Below, piece by piece: positions 1-7,876 of a stretch of 7,876 bases of DNA. Below the pieces are notes generated by a model, which ran no database searches, was not told the DNA's origin, and saw only the letters and a list, made by a program, of their open reading frames with translations. Each line of letters opens with the position of its first letter. Positions within the stretch are counted from its first letter, which is position 1. Origin of the DNA: Thermoproteota archaeon (lineage in GTDB: Archaea; Korarchaeota; JAOZGF01; JAOZFZ01); the NCBI GenBank assembly GCA_027492035.1, contig JAOZFT010000029.1:1-7876 (forward strand). Reading direction: 5' to 3'. The translations under genes and the position numbers were made by a program.

Positions 1-1136
1 TTGATGCAGAGGGGAGGAAGTAAACGGATGATGTTTATTCCTGAAGCTAGAGCTAATACGTTGTAATCCATTAATTTGTTTAGGTAAGGGCCGGCTGGAA
101 ATTTCAGTTCTAGGGCAAGCATTAACCCTATTCCTCTGATTTCATTAACTAATCCCTCAACCCAGCACTCTTTTCTTAATTTGTTTAGGAAATATTTACC
201 TTTCTCACCTGCCTTCTCATGAAGTTTCTCTTCTAAAATAACATTTATTGTAGCCAAGGCTGCTGCACAAATGACAGGTGACCCTCCGTAGGTGTTGCCA
301 TGTTCCCCCTTTTTCAGAGAATCCATTACCTCTTTCTTAGCTACTGTTACACCTATGGGTAACCCTCCAGCTAACCCCTTAGCCATACAAAGGATATCCG
401 GTTCAACATTGAAATGTTCACAAGCAAACATTTTCCCTGTTCTGCCGAGGCCTGTTTGAACTTCGTCAAGAATCATTAAAACATTTTTTTCGTCACATAT
501 TTCCCTCACTTGTTTAAGGTAGTCTTTGCTGGGTATTATTATTCCTGACTCTCCCTGAACAGGTTCAAGGATAACGGCTGCTGTTTCTTCACTTATTTGC
601 TTCTCCAGTTCTTCGGCGTCGTTATATTTCACAAATTTAACCTTTGGAAGCAAAGGCTGAAAGGGAGTCCTGTATTTTGGTTTCCATGTTAAGGATAGGG
701 AGCCAAAAGTTCTTCCGTGGAATCCTTGCTTCATAGAAATTATTTCCTTTTTACCTGAATATTTTCTAGCTAATTTTATAGCTGCTTCAACGGATTCTGT
801 TCCGCTATTTGAGAAAAAAACAGACGTTAAATTTTTAGGGGTTATTTCAACTATTTTTTCAGCTAATTCAGCCCTTACGTCGCTGTAGAATATGCCTGGA
901 CATGTTGAAATCTTCTCTATTTGCTCCTTCACTGCAGCTATAACTTTCTGGTGGGAGTGACCTATTACACATGACCCGTGGCCTGCTACGCAATCAATGT
1001 ATTCTTTACCGTTTATGTCCCAAATTTTAGCCCCTTTCCCTTTAACAGCAACTATTTTCCTTTTAGCGTAAACATTAGCTATATAAAGGGTTTCCTTCCT
1101 TACCACAGAGTCCTCATTAAGTGTTTTCCCCAACAT
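1..1136 (-). CDS. lysJ: LysW-aminoadipate semialdehyde / LysW-glutamate semialdehyde aminotransferase (LysJ/ArgD family), 3' end cut by window
   Basis: PLP-dependent class III aminotransferase of the acetylornithine aminotransferase family. In a LysW cluster it should transaminate the LysW-bound semialdehyde, using glutamate as amino donor, to give LysW-lysine and/or LysW-ornithine. I read 378 codons from the ATG at 1136 to the window edge without a stop. Family length is near 390-400, so only about the last 15-20 residues are missing. Visible landmarks are SGTES (111-115, phosphate-binding region), GFHGRT (138-143), LDEVQTG (223-229, cofactor-pyridine Asp at 224), the Schiff-base lysine K253 in MAKGLAGG, and NTYGG (281-285). 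The start overlaps the end of lysZ by 20 bp and a TAAGGA stretch lies just upstream, so translation is probably coupled. Assignment to LysJ rather than ordinary ArgD rests on the lysWYZ neighbours. The enzyme may serve both lysine and arginine. Confidence 0.93.
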   Translation of the reverse strand, partial: MLGKTLNEDSVVRKETLYIANVYAKRKIVAVKGKGAKIWDINGKEYIDCVAGHGSCVIGHSHQKVIAAVKEQIEKISTCPGIFYSDVRAELAEKIVEITPKNLTSVFFSNSGTESVEAAIKLARKYSGKKEIISMKQGFHGRTFGSLSLTWKPKYRTPFQPLLPKVKFVKYNDAEELEKQISEETAAVILEPVQGESGIIIPSKDYLKQVREICDEKNVLMILDEVQTGLGRTGKMFACEHFNVEPDILCMAKGLAGGLPIGVTVAKKEVMDSLKKGEHGNTYGGSPVICAAALATINVILEEKLHEKAGEKGKYFLNKLRKECWVEGLVNEIRGIGLMLALELKFPAGPYLNKLMDYNVLALASGINIIRLLPPLCI

Positions 1137-1935
1137 TCCTTACCACTGTGCAATTTTCTTCTTTCAACGCCTTAGTTACAGGGTTACTTCTGAAACCTGA
1201 AGAAATAATTGCTTTTAGAACTCCCCCCCTTAAAGCCTCTTTAACAGCTAAAACTTTCTTCTTCATTCCATAACCTACTTCTTTAAGCACAGGTTCGATT
1301 TCACAGCCCCTTATTTCCTTTATAAATCTACCTTTTGCATCTTTAATCCCTTCAACATCTGTTAAAATAAGGAGAGCATCAGCTGATAAAGCAGAAGCAA
1401 TATTAGCTGCAGCTCTGTCGCCGTCAACGTTTAAAGGTTCATTTTCCTCACCTAAAGCTAAAGCAGCTATGACAGGGAGGTAACCTTCCTTCAAAAGAAT
1501 TTCTAAAATCTCTTTATTTACATGGTTTATTTTACCTGTGTAACCACCCTCAACAATTAACACTTTGTTTCCCACTACCGACTTTACTTTCTTTTTCCTT
1601 TTAGCTTTAAGTAAGAAACCGTCTAGTCCCGTTAAACCAACAGCTTTAATCCCTTGTTTCGCAAGCTCTAAAACAATTTTTTTGTTAATTAACCCACCTA
1701 CGACCATTTGGTAAATTTTAATCGTTTCTTCGTCAGTGTACCTGCTTCTGAATCCTGAAGGTGAAACTATAAATTTCTGTTTAACCCCCATTCTTTCTGC
1801 TTGTTCAGTTACTTGTTTCCCTCCCCCATGAACAATTACGAATTCATGTTCATTAACTAAACTGCTTAAGTCATTTATTACTTGAGCAAGTGCTTGATCA
1901 ATTACTTTCCCTCCAAGTTTAACTACAATAAACAT
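1117..1935 (-). CDS. lysZ: [LysW]-aminoadipate / [LysW]-glutamate kinase
   Basis: Amino-acid kinase family protein of 272 residues, the usual size for LysZ/ArgB. It phosphorylates the side-chain carboxylate of the aminoadipate or glutamate carried on LysW. Motifs: VKLGGK (5-10, phosphate-binding lysine and glycines), HGGGK (36-40), SGFRSRYTDEE (60-70, a LysZ-like version of the substrate loop that is VTD-type in classical ArgB), NVDGDRAA (169-176), LTDVEG (191-196) and GYGMKKK (221-227). A strongly basic run at 110-118 (KAKRKKKVK) would suit docking of the very acidic LysW; this is inference. The ATG start has a purine-rich GAGGGGGA directly upstream. There is a 54-bp gap from lysY and a 20-bp overlap with lysJ. 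Whether it handles the lysine substrate, the arginine substrate or both cannot be decided from sequence. Confidence 0.95.
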   Translation of the reverse strand: MFIVVKLGGKVIDQALAQVINDLSSLVNEHEFVIVHGGGKQVTEQAERMGVKQKFIVSPSGFRSRYTDEETIKIYQMVVGGLINKKIVLELAKQGIKAVGLTGLDGFLLKAKRKKKVKSVVGNKVLIVEGGYTGKINHVNKEILEILLKEGYLPVIAALALGEENEPLNVDGDRAAANIASALSADALLILTDVEGIKDAKGRFIKEIRGCEIEPVLKEVGYGMKKKVLAVKEALRGGVLKAIISSGFRSNPVTKALKEENCTVVRNVGENT

Positions 1936-1989: not shown

Positions 1990-3042
1990 TTAAACAGGGA
2001 ACAAACCCGGAAAAAATAGACCCGTAGTTTCATCCAATCCAGCAACTAAGTTCATGTTTTGAATTGCTTGACCAGCTGCCCCCTTAACCAAGTTATCCAG
2101 GGCTGAAACCAGAACTACTCTCCCCACATGTTCATCTATTTCAAACCCTATGTCGCAAAAGTTTGACCCTATTAAGGTTTTAGGGTCTGGAAGGGAGTAC
2201 AGTCCCTCCCTCCTCTTTATTATCCTAATAAATGGTTCTTGACCGTAAAATTTCCTATAAATCCTCCACAACTCTTTTTCAGTCACTTCTCTCAAAGGAA
2301 AAGAATGGATTGTTGCAAGTATACCTCTTACTGTGTCGACTGCATGAGCTGAAAAAGACACTTTAACGTCAGCTTCAGCCAATAAACTTAACTCTTGCTC
2401 AATTTCAGCCGTGTGCCTATGTTTAGCAACTTTGTAAGGTCTGATTACATTTGCTCTTTCAGGGTGGTGGGTGGACCTAGATGGCTTCACGCCGCTGCCT
2501 GAGGAACCTATTTTAGCGTCAACAACAATTTTTTCAAGGTCTATCACCTTTTCAGAAATTAGAGGGGCTAAGGGGAGTATGGAGGCTGAAGCCATACACC
2601 CAGGGCAAGCTACAATTTCAGCTTTCTTTATCTCCTCTTTATGAATTTCAGGCAAACCATAAACAGCCTTTTTTACAAGTTCTGGACATGTATGCCTGCC
2701 GTAATAATGAACGTAAGTATTTAAGTTTTTTAAACGAAAGTCTGCACTTAAATCAATTATTTTTAATCCCCTATCCATCAGTTGCGGAATCATTGTCTGT
2801 GAAACACCGTGAGGAGTAGCAAAAAAGACGAAGTTGCAACTGTCACTTATTTTTTCAGGGTTGAAACTTTGAATTCTTAAATTCAGCAATTTCCTTAAGT
2901 GAGGATGGACACTGCCAATAAGTTTTCCGTTGTGGGTTCTGGAGGAAGCGTAAGTAATTTCTGCTTCAGGGTGAATGAGGAGTAATCGAGCTAATTCACC
3001 GCCTGTGTATCCTGAAATACCTATTATTGCTGCTTCAATCAA
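1990..3042 (-). CDS. lysY: [LysW]-aminoadipate 6-phosphate / [LysW]-glutamyl phosphate reductase
   Basis: NADPH-dependent reductase of the ArgC/LysY family, 350 residues, full length. It converts the acyl phosphate made by LysZ on LysW into the semialdehyde used by LysJ. The N-terminal Rossmann motif is GISGYTGGEL (8-17), followed by YASSRTHNGK (31-40). The nucleophilic cysteine is C149 in CPGC (146-149). The catalytic histidine region is KHRHTAEIEQEL (207-218). GSSGSGVKPSRS (179-190) and the C-terminal VSALDNLVKGAAGQA (312-326) are typical of the family. The start is TTG at 3042, with no in-frame ATG giving a better N-terminus and a GAGAGG ribosome-binding site about 7 nt upstream. The Rossmann motif begins a few residues in, as expected. 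It lies 49 bp downstream of lysW, and no lysX is inserted between them. Confidence 0.95.
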   Translation of the reverse strand: MIEAAIIGISGYTGGELARLLLIHPEAEITYASSRTHNGKLIGSVHPHLRKLLNLRIQSFNPEKISDSCNFVFFATPHGVSQTMIPQLMDRGLKIIDLSADFRLKNLNTYVHYYGRHTCPELVKKAVYGLPEIHKEEIKKAEIVACPGCMASASILPLAPLISEKVIDLEKIVVDAKIGSSGSGVKPSRSTHHPERANVIRPYKVAKHRHTAEIEQELSLLAEADVKVSFSAHAVDTVRGILATIHSFPLREVTEKELWRIYRKFYGQEPFIRIIKRREGLYSLPDPKTLIGSNFCDIGFEIDEHVGRVVLVSALDNLVKGAAGQAIQNMNLVAGLDETTGLFFPGLFPV

Positions 3043-3091: not shown

Positions 3092-3274
3092 TTACTGACC
3101 CCAATCTTCTCCTTCCAGTTCTGCTTCAGCCAGTACTATTTTGTCGTTATTTATTTCAACTACTTCAAGTTCTGTTCCGCAGTCTGAACATTCAACAACT
3201 TCTCTTACAACCGGATCTGTTAAATTTATTTCAGCTCCACAAACCGGGCATGAGGCAATGAACACCTGAGCCAT
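3092..3274 (-). CDS. lysW: Amino-group carrier protein LysW (ends in Gln, not Glu)
   Basis: Small acidic zinc-ribbon protein of 60 residues, the carrier of the LysW lysine/arginine pathway. Two CxxC pairs (C9/C12 and C29/C32) bind the structural zinc. The rest is rich in Asp and Glu, with few basic residues, matching the basic surfaces expected of partner enzymes. The tail is EGEDWGQ. The family ends in EDWGE, and that last glutamate's side-chain carboxyl is joined to the substrate amino group by LysX. Here the last codon is CAG followed by TAA, so a glutamine replaces it. A GAG codon would differ by one base, and no in-frame extension supplies a glutamate. A ribosome-binding site (GAGGGTGAT, 3279-3287) sits just before the ATG. 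It is the first gene of the lys operon and is preceded by a TATA-like box. Confidence 0.94.
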   Translation of the reverse strand: MAQVFIASCPVCGAEINLTDPVVREVVECSDCGTELEVVEINNDKIVLAEAELEGEDWGQ

Positions 3275-3824: not shown

Positions 3825-5156
3825 TCAAGGAAACCTTTTTAGAAAAGTTCCATGACCTGGTTTTGAAAGAGGGGTTCCTTTTTCTATAATTAATTCCCCC
3901 CTGCAGAAAGTGGCTTGAATTTCTCCTTTAAACTTTTTCCCAAGAAACATTGATTGTTTAGTTTTGGTTAACAAGTATTCTTCTGTCACTTTAAACTCTG
4001 ACTTAGGATCTATTAAGACTATGTCAGCATCTGAACCTGGCAGTAAACAACCTTTTTTAGGATATATCCTTAGGAATTTAGCAGCGTTAGTTGAGAAGAC
4101 TTTTATTAATGTTTCCAAAGTTATTTCCCTATTTGAGTATAGGGTGAAGAGAATAGGCAGGGTGGTTTCGATACCAGGCATCCCTGATGGAGCCAAAGTA
4201 ATTTCTTCATATCCTTTATCCTTCATTTCCTTTGGGTAGGGGGCATGGTCACTTGCCACAAAGTTTATGTTTCCTTTAGTAAGCTCTTCCACCAGTCTTC
4301 GATTGTCAAATTTGTTCCTTAAAGGGGGACCGACTTTTGCGTAGGGTCCTTGCTTATCCATTTCATCCATTGTTAATGTTAAGTAATGTGGGGTTGTTTC
4401 AACTGTTATTTTAGGCCATAGTTTCCTGTACATGGAGATTATGTCCATACTGTCTGAACTGCTCAAATGAACTATATGCACTGGACATCTTGTTTGTCTT
4501 GCAATTTCTAAGACCCTCGCCACCCCTATACTTTCACACATTATTCTCTCTTTTGCGTAGTCACTGAATTTATTCCTGGATTCCTTTTTCAGTTTTACAA
4601 TTGCCCCTTCATCTTCAGCATGAACCATTAAGGGAACTTGGTACTTCTTGATTTCTAACATTATTTCTTTGAGGGAGGAAGTGTCTGGAGCAGATAAACC
4701 AGGAAATCTTGAAATCATAAAAGTTTTAACGGCTCCTACACCTGCTTCAGCCATTTCTTTAATGTTTTCAACAGTGGTTTTTCCAACTCCTCCAAGCAAC
4801 ATGAAGTCAATATGCGCCTTATTTCTCACTTTTTTAAGTTTATCCCTCAAAATTTTTGCATCAGTTACAGGGGGTTCAGTGTTAGGCATGTCAGCTATGG
4901 TGGTTACTCCTCCATGTGCAGCTGCTAAAGTCCCTGTTTCAAAGTTCTCGGCAGGATTGGAGCTTGGGTCTCTGAAGTGTACATGTGGATCAATCCCTCC
5001 TGGAATAGCTATTTTTCCTTCTGCATCATATACTTTGTCAGCTTCACAAATTTTTTTAGAGAAACAAGTTACCTTTCCTTCACTAACCATTATATTGACT
5101 TGTAGGAGGTTGTTGTTAAGCAAGATGCAGCAGTTTTTAATCAATAAATCAATCAT
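3825..5156 (-). CDS. pyrC: Dihydroorotase
   Basis: Zinc amidohydrolase of 443 residues that cyclises N-carbamoyl-L-aspartate to dihydroorotate, the third step of pyrimidine synthesis, in the cytoplasm. Expected motifs appear in order: the HxH metal site in DPHVHFRDP (56-64; H58, H60), GGVTTIADMPNTEPP (82-96), a lysine in GAVKTFM (141-147; K144) that fits the metal-bridging position, VHAEDEG (178-184; H179), HIVHLSS (227-233; H230), TTPHYLT (254-260) and SDHAPYP (302-308; D303). The C-terminus closes with the GSDADIVLIDP segment (374-384) and a PGHGTF tail, as in allantoinase-like dihydroorotases. Length and motif order make the enzyme look complete and active. It starts with ATG 47 bp after pyrI behind only a weak ribosome-binding site and is the last gene of the pyr operon. 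Confidence 0.95.
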   Translation of the reverse strand: MIDLLIKNCCILLNNNLLQVNIMVSEGKVTCFSKKICEADKVYDAEGKIAIPGGIDPHVHFRDPSSNPAENFETGTLAAAHGGVTTIADMPNTEPPVTDAKILRDKLKKVRNKAHIDFMLLGGVGKTTVENIKEMAEAGVGAVKTFMISRFPGLSAPDTSSLKEIMLEIKKYQVPLMVHAEDEGAIVKLKKESRNKFSDYAKERIMCESIGVARVLEIARQTRCPVHIVHLSSSDSMDIISMYRKLWPKITVETTPHYLTLTMDEMDKQGPYAKVGPPLRNKFDNRRLVEELTKGNINFVASDHAPYPKEMKDKGYEEITLAPSGMPGIETTLPILFTLYSNREITLETLIKVFSTNAAKFLRIYPKKGCLLPGSDADIVLIDPKSEFKVTEEYLLTKTKQSMFLGKKFKGEIQATFCRGELIIEKGTPLSKPGHGTFLKRFP

Positions 5157-5203
5157 TCTCTACACTTTTAAAGGTTTTTCCCAAAAACAGAGAAGAGAGA
5201 AAG

Positions 5204-5674
5204 TTAAAGCAGTTTCTCTATTTCTTCTTCCTTTACTATTTTGTCGCAGTAGTCACATTTGATTTTTAAAGGTTTCCTGTTTATTACTGTGAAGGATGTT
5301 TTGACAGGTTCTCTTTCCTTGTTAGTTATGCATTTGGGGTTTGGACATTTCAAAATATCTACTAAATGGTTTGGGATTTCAATTTTTTCTCCAGGTCCAG
5401 CTACGTGGTTTTTAACTGTACTTATTGTGGCTGTGGGGCTTAACAAAGCAACTTTAATTTTTTCTTCCTCCTTTAAATACCTTTTCCTAAGCTCAACCAC
5501 ATCCTTAACTTTGATTTCTTCATTTGGGACATTTAACGCCAAAATCACAGCTCCTTCTTTCGCTTTCAAGACCTTGAGTATTTTTAACGCCTTCCCTGCT
5601 GAAACATGATCTATAAGTGTTCCTTCATCTATTTTTACTGTTTTAGGTTTTCTTCCTTCACCTATTTCACTCAT
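5204..5674 (-). CDS. pyrI: Aspartate carbamoyltransferase regulatory chain
   Basis: Regulatory subunit that binds nucleotide effectors and links PyrB trimers into the allosteric holoenzyme; it has no catalytic role. From the ATG at 5674 it is 156 residues, close to the family's roughly 150. The N-terminal nucleotide-binding domain includes GTLIDHVSAGKALKIL, equivalent to the GTVIDHIPA region of known PyrI. The C-terminal zinc domain has all four cysteines (C110, C115, C140, C143; Cx4C then Cx2C) and a PVKTSF strand. A TTG at 5695 would add seven residues and overlap pyrB. I prefer the ATG because a GGAGGGG (5682-5688) lies 7-9 nt before it and it starts 4 nt after the pyrB stop. PyrI is common in archaea and enteric bacteria and supports feedback control of this pathway. 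Confidence 0.94.
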   Translation of the reverse strand: MSEIGEGRKPKTVKIDEGTLIDHVSAGKALKILKVLKAKEGAVILALNVPNEEIKVKDVVELRKRYLKEEEKIKVALLSPTATISTVKNHVAGPGEKIEIPNHLVDILKCPNPKCITNKEREPVKTSFTVINRKPLKIKCDYCDKIVKEEEIEKLL

Positions 5675-5678
5675 TCCT

Positions 5679-6608
5679 TTACCCCTCCAACCCAAGTATC
5701 TCCTTTATTAAAGCAGCCCTTATAACCATGCCGTTAACGGCTTGCTGAAAATACCTGGCATGTTTTGTTGAGTCAACTTCAGGTGAGAGTTCGGTGACTC
5801 TTGGCAGAGGATGCATTACAATTAAATTTTCCTTGCACCCCTCAAGGGAAGAGGGAGTAACTGTGTAAAGTCCTTTAAGTTTTTCGTATTCCTCAGGGTT
5901 TGGAAGCCTTTCCTTCTGTATCCTGGTAACGTAGAGAACATCCAATTCATTTATTGCATCTTGTAACTTTTCAATTTTTTCGTAACGTATTTTCCTTTCT
6001 ACCATCTCAAGGACTTCCTCACGTATTTGTAAAATTTCAGGTGCTATGTAATAAATTTTAACGTTGGAAAAAAGAGAAAGGCCGTAACTTAGGCTGCTGG
6101 GCGTCCTTCCATATTTGAGGTCTCCCATTATTCCAATATTTAAGTTATCTATGTGTTTAAATTCTCTCCAAATAGTGTACAGGTCAAGCAGGGTTTGTGT
6201 TGGGTGTTCTCTTGAACCGTCTCCTGCATTAATTACAGGAGCCTCTGCAAACTCAGCTGCAAGTTTACTGGCTCCTTCACTTGGATGCCTTAAAACAATT
6301 AAGTCTACTTTGTACCCATCTATCATTTTGATGGTGTCGGCTAATGTTTCTCCTTTAGCTACACTTGTTCTTTGAACCTCTCCGAAATCTAACACGTCAC
6401 CCCCTAATCTTTTCACAGCCATTGTGAAACTTAATCTTGTCCTTGTTGAAGGCTCAAAGAAAATTACTGCAACAATTTTTCCATTAGCTACGTTTAAAGT
6501 TTCCCCTCTCCTTAAACTTTCCAGTTCATCCGCCCTCCTAAACAAGTACTCTACTTCCTCTCTTGAAAAATCAAAAAACGAAATAATATCTCTCCCTTTA
6601 AGAGTCAA
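5679..6608 (-). CDS. pyrB: Aspartate carbamoyltransferase catalytic chain
   Basis: Transfers the carbamoyl group of carbamoyl phosphate to L-aspartate, the committed step of pyrimidine synthesis. 309 residues, full family length. Conserved active-site elements are visible: FEPSTRTRLSF (51-61; carbamoyl-phosphate loop S54-T55-R56-T57), the 80s loop TSVAKGET (81-88; K85), HPTQTLLDLYT (135-145; H135), GRTPSSL (167-173; R168), TRIQKER (228-234; R229 and Q231, aspartate site) and HPLPR (266-270). The start is TTG at 6608: an in-frame stop lies eight codons upstream with no ATG between, and GGTGG sits about 7 nt before it. The N-terminus, LKGRDIISFFDFS, matches archaeal and bacterial homologues. 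First gene of the pyr operon, 4 nt from the preferred pyrI start. Confidence 0.96.
   Translation of the reverse strand: MTLKGRDIISFFDFSREEVEYLFRRADELESLRRGETLNVANGKIVAVIFFEPSTRTRLSFTMAVKRLGGDVLDFGEVQRTSVAKGETLADTIKMIDGYKVDLIVLRHPSEGASKLAAEFAEAPVINAGDGSREHPTQTLLDLYTIWREFKHIDNLNIGIMGDLKYGRTPSSLSYGLSLFSNVKIYYIAPEILQIREEVLEMVERKIRYEKIEKLQDAINELDVLYVTRIQKERLPNPEEYEKLKGLYTVTPSSLEGCKENLIVMHPLPRVTELSPEVDSTKHARYFQQAVNGMVIRAALIKEILGLEG
5682..5688 (-). promoter_or_regulatory. Ribosome binding site that fixes the pyrI start
   Basis: GGAGGGG lies inside the last codons of pyrB, 7 nt before the ATG at 5674. It is one of the strongest purine motifs in the window and favours that ATG over the in-frame TTG at 5695, which lies upstream of the motif. 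It also points to coupled translation of pyrB and pyrI. Confidence 0.7.
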
Positions 6609-6842: not shown

Positions 6843-7028
6843 CTACCCCATCGACAACAAATCCTTTAACACTGTAACTACCTTATCTGACCTTTTCAGA
6901 AGACATTTTAAAACCCTACTAACCCAAAGCAGCATTTTTTCTCCTCCAAACAAAATCAAAGCAGAGCTTAACGTCACGACTGTCAAATCTGTGAAAGGAA
7001 AAGGTATAAGAACAATTTTCCCCTTCAA
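6843..7028 (-). pseudogene. Decayed PemK/MazF-family toxin gene with internal deletion
   Basis: The frame starts at TTG (7028) and encodes 61 residues, whereas PemK/MazF mRNA interferases are around 110. Residues 3-16 (GKIVLIPFPFTDLT) match the diagnostic first strand and loop of the family, usually GDIVLVPFPFTDLS. The next segment, TLSSALILF, aligns with the usual KLRPALVL, but the conserved Arg-Pro is replaced by Ser-Ser. The end, SDKVVTVLKDLL (47-58), resembles the family's late VDKLVTLDKSLI segment. Only about 20 residues separate these blocks where 50 or so are expected, so the middle of the barrel appears to be deleted and the product should be inactive. No intact antitoxin precedes it. 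The family match rests on motif recognition alone. In intact loci the toxin is an endoribonuclease neutralised by its antitoxin. Confidence 0.55.
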
Positions 7029-7876
7029 GAGTACCTAACTTTAACCAAAGCTGAGTCAATAATTAAACCTCTACACCCCTCCAAGTCTAGGTGACATAAG
7101 TATTCCTTAACGGCCAAAGGCTACTGGAGTTTGCATCTATCAAGAATTTCACTAAATTCGAGATAAAAACCCTTGAAAGCTACGACTGAGCACTTGTCGT
7201 GGCGTCTCACCCCATATAAAGAGCAAATATTCACATTAAATGATTACTTAGCAACAGGAAAGTGGACAACAAAAAAATCGTGAATTTACCTAAGGCTTAA
7301 ATGCTGTCAAGTCGTCGAATCAGCCACGGACTTGAATAAGGAAATTCGGTAAGGCATCTTAAAGCTTTAACCCTTTTCTTCCAGTGAAAAACATTTTCTT
7401 TCTCTTCCTTAAAAACTTCCTCTAAAACAAATTCTTCACTTTTTTTATTTTCGTAACCTATTTTTTAACTGTATGGTTCCTTTGAAGCGTAGACTGAAAC
7501 TTTATCTTCAGACATTTTTAATCAATTTAATAATTCAAGAACTTTACTCTCGTTTTTTAGCTTTCCCAGTGACTTGTCCCACAAAAACTTAGTAGAGGCA
7601 GGGGTAAATGGAAATGTTTAAACCTTTATACAATTTGTTTTCGAGTCTTAGAAGGTAAAACCTTTTGCCTCTTCATCATTTCTGAAATATGTTTTTCATA
7701 AATTGATTTATTAAATTTTTTCGTCATAAATAGAATAAAATCACCGAACAATTTCATTATTACGGAATTTTTTGTTCAGATTTAGATATGGGGAAACTTC
7801 AAAAGATTCCCTGTGTTTACTTTGTCTCAAATTTCTTTCCTGAAAAAAAGGGTTCTGGGGATCTTACAAGGCAGAA
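7029..7876. other. About 850 bp without an intact gene, apparently eroded coding DNA
   Basis: No frame of convincing length occurs on either strand. Minus-strand scraps look protein-like: a frame at 7025-7120 whose TGA overlaps the toxin's TTG start (TTGA), a GTG-initiated scrap at 7087-7152 reading VKFLIDAN, which recalls the N-terminus of PIN-domain nucleases, the two-part frame at 7297-7515, and a 33-codon frame at 7626-7727. The scatter of short frames in one orientation fits decayed accessory genes, possibly toxin-antitoxin loci. No inverted-repeat ends, tRNA or CRISPR repeats were seen. Confidence 0.4.
7297..7515 (-). pseudogene. Possible remnant of an unrecognised gene, one in-frame stop
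   Basis: An ATG at 7515 opens a frame of 16 codons (MSEDKVSVYASKEPYS) ended by TAA at 7465-7467. The same frame then stays open for 55 codons to TAA at 7297-7299. The second part has the Lys/Glu-rich, charge-patterned look of archaeal coding sequence (for example EEVFKEEKENVFHWKKRVKAL). I do not recognise a family. It could be a gene with one nonsense mutation, a fragment of a larger lost gene, or chance in AT-rich DNA. Its position on the same strand upstream of the toxin remnant would allow a shared origin. Confidence 0.25.

Follow-up and report, generated by a model that had tools for sequence, protein, structure and literature searches.

Results and Discussion

The LysW protein encoded in the window, by which we mean the whole stretch of 7,876 bases that was analyzed, ends in glutamine at the place of the cargo-bearing glutamate, and it is no one-off but belongs to a recurrent pattern. 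We favor, with modest confidence, the reading that this is a working LysW which is made as a Gln precursor and deamidated before LysX acts on it, and that in most of the other lineages with a terminal Gln a glutamine amidotransferase (GATase) encoded in the operon also releases the product.

The terminal codon and the operon of the window

LysW serves as a small handle protein for the building of lysine or arginine in archaea and in some bacteria. In characterized LysW and ArgW proteins a terminal Glu carries the substrate, and LysX recognizes the tail via its GSWGR motif (PMC10433800). The lysW gene in the window (positions 3092..3274, minus strand) encodes 60 amino acids and is matched by PF21344 (57.6 bits, cut-off 27) and TIGR01206 (58.5 bits, cut-off 53.2); NF041070 gives 62 bits, which is under its cut-off of 75. 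Its tail reads GEDWGQ, as had been claimed in the earlier note: on the minus strand positions 3092-3106 translate to D-W-G-Q-stop, with the Gln codon CAG at 3095..3097 (CTG on the plus strand) and the stop codon TAA at 3092-3094. The four cysteines and the DWG, described as intact before, were confirmed by translation, the cysteines lying in a first zinc knuckle Cys9-Pro-Val-Cys12 (3239..3250, minus strand) and a second one, Cys29-Ser-Asp-Cys32 (3179..3190, minus strand). Alignment to the solved LysW proteins 3wwl, 5k2m and 3vpb places a C-terminal Glu at the position of this Gln in all three cases. Two zinc-binding Cys pairs and the acidic EDWG tail of the LysW family are present, and an encoded C-terminal Glu bearing the substrate is not. 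Compared to LysW and ArgW of Thermus, Sulfolobus and Thermococcus and to haloarchaeal ArgW, the system studied here has in common the four-Cys zinc ribbon, the acidic tail with EDWG, the lysY-lysZ-lysJ operon and a LysX with a tail-binding motif, but differs in the terminal residue, which is Gln instead of the known substrate-linked Glu (PMC10433800).

On the same strand we find lysY/argC for the [LysW]-aminoadipyl/glutamyl phosphate reductase (1990..3042, minus strand; TIGR01850 434.8 bits, cut-off 233.6), lysZ for the [LysW]-aminoadipate/glutamate kinase (1117..1935, minus strand; NF010662 258.6 bits, cut-off 194) and lysJ for the aminotransferase (3..1136, minus strand; TIGR00707 454.8 bits, cut-off 410), which runs off the contig end. 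The window is one entire contig (C27) of a genome that is 93% complete, and as this contig ends inside lysJ, a gene following lysJ, be it for LysK or for a GATase, would be outside the visible sequence. In the relatives G001 (same family) and G002 (same order) the gene order is lysZ-lysJ-lysK. The host genome encodes two LysX proteins on contigs C5 and C10, both above the cut-off of TIGR02144, the one on C5 adjoining homocitrate-synthase-like and isocitrate-dehydrogenase-like genes. With the LysW partner genes lysX, lysY, lysZ and lysJ all found, the earlier assumption that the pathway is not simply lost gains support. LysK was not recognizable in the contigs of the host genome, where the best M20 protein is YgeY-type and was rejected as LysK; C10 with the second LysX carries no LysK either, and 76 stretches at contig ends yielded neither a convincing lysJ tail nor any fragment of LysK. 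Neither of the two types of operon GATase described below (EgtC-like and class I) was found in the host genome.

Two observations concern the rest of the window. Upstream of lysW and on the same strand lies a pyrimidine cluster (PyrC-like amidohydrolase, PyrI, PyrB; 3825-6608), with approximately 550 AT-rich bases in between. At 6843-7059 on the minus strand two short open reading frames overlap in different frames; one of them starts with MKGKIVLIPFPFTDL, which we take to resemble the start of PemK/MazF-type proteins, and has no Pfam match. Both are perhaps the remains of a decayed toxin gene.

Glutamate and glutamine across LysW proteins

In a first set of 109 LysW loci, drawn from relatives as well as 84,980 species genomes, 17 end in Gln. 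These 17 loci belong to archaea, Gammaproteobacteria, Ignavibacteria/Melioribacter, KSB1, Phycisphaerae and Sulfidibacter corallicola, the last being a cultured organism with a complete genome. If loci obtained later are included, 158 distinct LysW proteins can be compared, of which 130 have Glu at the C-terminus, 28 have Gln and none has any other residue. From the GAR codons of Glu, codons for Lys, Val, Ala, Gly and Asp are also one base away. That Gln is the exclusive alternative although other residues are equally near is an argument against error or decay, and chance or decay as the general cause of Gln was rejected on this basis.

This bears directly on the possibility that the Gln codon of the window stems from a faulty assembly or a private mutation, with Glu in the living population. 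The two codons differ by a single G/C change, the reading comes from one incomplete assembly, and the nearest relatives (G001, G002) offer no readable LysW, a lysW gene being found in neither of their assemblies. We nevertheless regard it as unlikely, since numerous lineages show Gln, among them organisms with complete genomes and a group of 11 related archaeal genomes, and no other substitution is seen. Of the earlier suggestion of an error or strain mutation there remains that it may apply to the assembly of the window; as a general explanation the recurrence, with Gln as sole alternative, speaks against it.

A tree of LysX with 127 rows requires at least 13 changes between Glu and Gln, 4 of which are forced by well-supported branches alone. 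The tail-binding motif of LysX (GSWGR/GSWAR) is intact in all 27 Gln rows. An altered tail site of LysX was rejected as an explanation for this reason.

Tandem lysW pairs with both copies ending in Glu were observed at four loci (L043, L050, L051 and L070) of Borrarchaeum/Sifarchaeum-type archaea.

Paired copies in Nitrosopumilaceae-like archaea

A search for the tail pattern in 394 archaeal genomes revealed 11 genomes of one archaeal family with a terminal-Gln LysW. Gene content and a genome size of approximately 1.6 Mb suggest that this family is Nitrosopumilaceae-like. Ten of the 11 genomes possess one Glu and one Gln lysW, approximately 6-8 kb apart. The EDWGE copy is located next to an argG-like gene, followed by LysX1-LysY-LysZ-LysJ, and the EDWGQ copy is flanked by a homocitrate-synthase-like gene and LysX2-LysK. 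In the eleventh genome (G374) the copies are on separate contigs and both end in Gln (L216, 7433-7606). The duties of LysW and LysX seem to be divided in L214, L221 and L224 between the copy on the argG-like side and the copy on the homocitrate-synthase-like side.

No EgtC-like gene was detected in G073, the one Nitrosopumilaceae-like genome that was searched whole. As Gln is kept across many genera beside LysK, and no EgtC-like gene is seen in G073, a GATase is not required for Gln. The rule that Gln never occurs together with LysK, taken from the 109 loci, was rejected by these genomes.

The paired copies, as well as the two LysX genes in the genome of the window (C5, C10), could hint at a second LysW with EDWGE that fell into a gap of the assembly and carries the main load, with the Gln copy serving one branch only. 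We consider this rather unlikely for the window's organism. A search of its genome returned one lysW match (E 1.7e-36) and otherwise only matches with E > 0.2, so that a single LysW is present in a 93% complete genome; this copy is sited in the lysY-lysZ-lysJ operon, and its use would be left unexplained. The second Glu-ending LysW proposed earlier is hence the real situation in the Nitrosopumilaceae-like genomes, but it was not found in the genome of the window.

Two glutaminase-fold enzymes in LysW operons

Comparison of the gene neighborhoods showed a protein of approximately 213 residues starting with MCRLL in each of the 12 Gln loci whose flanks are complete. Its gene is positioned between lysY and lysZ wherever both are visible, and it also occurs in the genomes of Gln loci whose flanks are incomplete. 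Pfam assigns GATase_4 above cut-off, and TIGR03442, the equivalog model for EgtC, gives 44.8 and 47.6 bits at a cut-off of 218.65. The AlphaFold model (pLDDT 89.5) has EgtC and GlmS among its top fold matches, EgtC being the best one (Foldseek E 6e-12; VIA-align Z 24, rmsd 2.1 over 200 residues). EgtC, the ergothioneine gamma-glutamyl amidohydrolase, strips a gamma-glutamyl group through amide hydrolysis. The operon protein resembles it in the closest solved fold, the N-terminal Cys and the oxyanion Asn-Gly, and differs from it in the score far under the EgtC cut-off (45-48 compared to 218.65 bits) and in a Gly at the position of the Asp of YafJ, GlmS and archaeal relatives.

Invariant in all 48 EgtC-like sequences are Cys2, His73, Arg75, Asn101 and Gly102, and the protein has the N-terminal Cys, the Arg, the Asn-Gly and the fold of a class II GATase or Ntn hydrolase. 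If compared to E. coli GlmS, YafJ and two archaeal GATases, the Asp of the TDTE/TDSE-type motif is replaced by an invariant Gly116; the Asp for the free alpha-amino group, which marks a class II GATase acting on free glutamine, is absent. In GlmS glutamine is bound through its free alpha-amino group by this Asp and through its alpha-carboxylate by an Arg. With the carboxylate site kept and the amino site lost, the pocket appears suited to a protein C-terminal Gln or a gamma-substituted Glu in peptide linkage, as LysW would offer it.

In another archaeal family (G347, G395) LysW-Gln is accompanied by the EgtC-like gene, and lysZ and lysJ are fused. The fusion protein of approximately 670 amino acids is encoded at L217 12476-14479 and L218 11102-13111.

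The second enzyme is a class I GATase, which is unrelated to the EgtC-like protein. In two small archaea with LysW-Gln (G081, G125) it directly follows lysJ, its start overlapping the lysJ stop, and contains a Cys-His-Glu triad (Cys87, His172, Glu174). Its model has a pLDDT of 77, and Arabidopsis gamma-glutamyl peptidase 1 is among the structural neighbors. G039 has a class I GATase of 52% identity together with a LysW that ends in Glu. The third genome of that genus (G061) contains an orphan lysW-Gln alone (L149, 8119-8535), without operon; it may be a relic, or LysW may have a second use there. In close relatives the site of L149 is occupied by a complete lysW-X-Y-Z-J-GATase operon.

The orphan gene of this one small archaeon, together with the inability of LysX to activate Gln as it does Glu, might be taken as a sign that LysW-Gln is a non-chargeable carrier, that is, a decayed or regulatory copy. 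This is very unlikely, given that the Gln copy is the only LysW found in the genome of the window and that bacterial Gln loci are headed by lysW in an intact operon, with Cys and DWG intact.

Class I and class II GATases are known to form a gamma-glutamyl thioester in their reactions, and both are present in the operons. In principle, an enzyme with a Cys nucleophile could hence use Gln directly and let the amino group of aminoadipate or glutamate displace its amide by transamidation, with neither deamidation nor ATP-dependent ligation. We judge this highly improbable: the 27 Gln rows retain LysX and its tail-binding motif, and the same GATase is more common with Glu-ending than with Gln-ending LysW.

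Association of GATases, LysK and glutamine

The EgtC-like gene is present in 46 of the 109 loci, 12 of them with Gln and 34 with Glu. LysK is present in 17 loci, all with Glu, and none of the 109 loci contains both; in the remaining loci neither was seen, mostly as the locus ends early. Three GATase genomes that were searched whole gave weak M20 matches only. The operon GATases are located where LysK, the [LysW]-lysine/ornithine hydrolase of the M20 type, would be needed, but folds and chemistry are unrelated, the GATases having a Cys nucleophile and LysK a metal.

In a class of Bacteroidota the tail pattern was found in 29 genomes, and 28 of the 29 possess the EgtC-like gene, 26 on the contig of the match. 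Six of these 28 have a Gln end, and the 29th tail match is due to chance. In Chloroflexota 145 of 400 genomes contain the tail pattern, approximately 6 by chance according to a reversed control; the EgtC-like gene is absent in all 36 genomes tested, and no true Gln was found among approximately 139 genomes. Among the matches listed for Chloroflexota three read Gln, two of which turned out not to be LysW when checked, while the third lacks a stop codon. The apparent Gln matches in G570, G787, G1065 and G118 were rejected as chance matches outside LysW. The comparison of the Bacteroidota class to Chloroflexota yields a Fisher p of 1.4e-5, uncorrected for shared descent. In the LysX tree, 12 changes between Glu and Gln fall among 61 rows with a GATase compared to 1 among 46 rows without. 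A phylogenetic test by independent pairs is powerless, as there are no more than one or two pairs in which one member has a GATase and the other does not, and few independent gains of a GATase underlie its link to Gln.

That a GATase simply marks Gln was rejected, because most GATase operons encode Glu; it also follows that deamidation alone cannot be the main job of the enzyme. The same observation, and the occurrence of Gln beside LysK in the Nitrosopumilaceae-like genomes, would agree with operon GATases that stand in for LysK in product release alone; Gln would then lose its amide spontaneously or through some unrelated enzyme, and the flips between Glu and Gln would reflect relaxed constraint. 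We see this as conceivable though not probable. The flips are concentrated in the GATase lineages, and the gamma-glutamyl group for which the conserved pocket is suited is the same in both reactions.

Proposed deamidation before charging

Removing ammonia from Gln and releasing lysine from LysW are the same gamma-glutamyl hydrolysis. According to our preferred reading LysW would first be synthesized as a precursor ending in glutamine, and the side-chain amide of this residue would be hydrolyzed before loading by LysX, leading to the usual EDWGE tail. In most of the other Gln lineages the hydrolase would be the operon-encoded glutaminase-fold enzyme, either the EgtC-like Ntn hydrolase or the class I GATase, which may also cut the gamma-glutamyl bond and release the finished lysine or ornithine, replacing LysK. 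Since such an enzyme would convert Gln to Glu anyway, both residues would be interchangeable at the DNA level, and the codon could drift between them in GATase lineages. In LysK-bearing Gln lineages LysK itself, an unseen gene or another amidase might deamidate; in the window's organism this might be done by LysK, by the product of a gene located past the end of the contig, or by a different amidase. The earlier note had pointed to a co-occurring amidase as something to look for; most other Gln lineages do have glutaminase-fold genes in their operons, whereas a search of the window's genome found none.

A precedent is known from Pup, where Dop makes PupE from PupQ by deamidation and also depupylates (PMC8599861). 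Pup, too, is a small tag whose C-terminal Gln becomes Glu before an ATP-dependent ligase acts, and one enzyme deamidates it and cleaves the conjugate (PMC8599861). The fold of Dop is glutamine-synthetase-like, in contrast to the Ntn-hydrolase and class I GATase folds of the candidates proposed here, and the cargo of LysW, for which we infer deamidation, is a metabolite instead of a protein. By analogy, the deamidase in GATase lineages is probably the product-releasing enzyme. A Dop-like deamidation, one of the options considered earlier, offers the best fit to Gln as sole and recurrent replacement, to the unchanged LysX and to the glutaminase-fold genes in the operons; the deamidase itself is postulated, and the genome of the window has yielded no candidate. 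More tentatively, and with somewhat less than an even chance in our estimate, we propose that LysW is often a Gln precursor, that two unrelated glutaminase-fold enzymes have independently replaced LysK as deamidase and as releaser of lysine or ornithine, and that a Dop-like logic evolved here separately.

In the open-access literature, subscription journals being mostly outside the search, we did not find the recurrent LysW-Gln pattern described, nor a paper combining LysW, LysK and glutamine amidotransferase; LysW and amidotransferase appear together only in a review of the rumen microbiome, which mentions LysW once.

Conclusion

The function-defining Glu of LysW is swapped only for Gln, and repeatedly so, which points to an undescribed maturation step. 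Such a step would concern lysine or arginine biosynthesis in many archaea and bacteria, including probable ammonia-oxidizing archaea. The analysis names two candidate enzymes for the pathway hole left where no LysK is present, and would provide a second, unrelated case for comparison with Pup and Dop.
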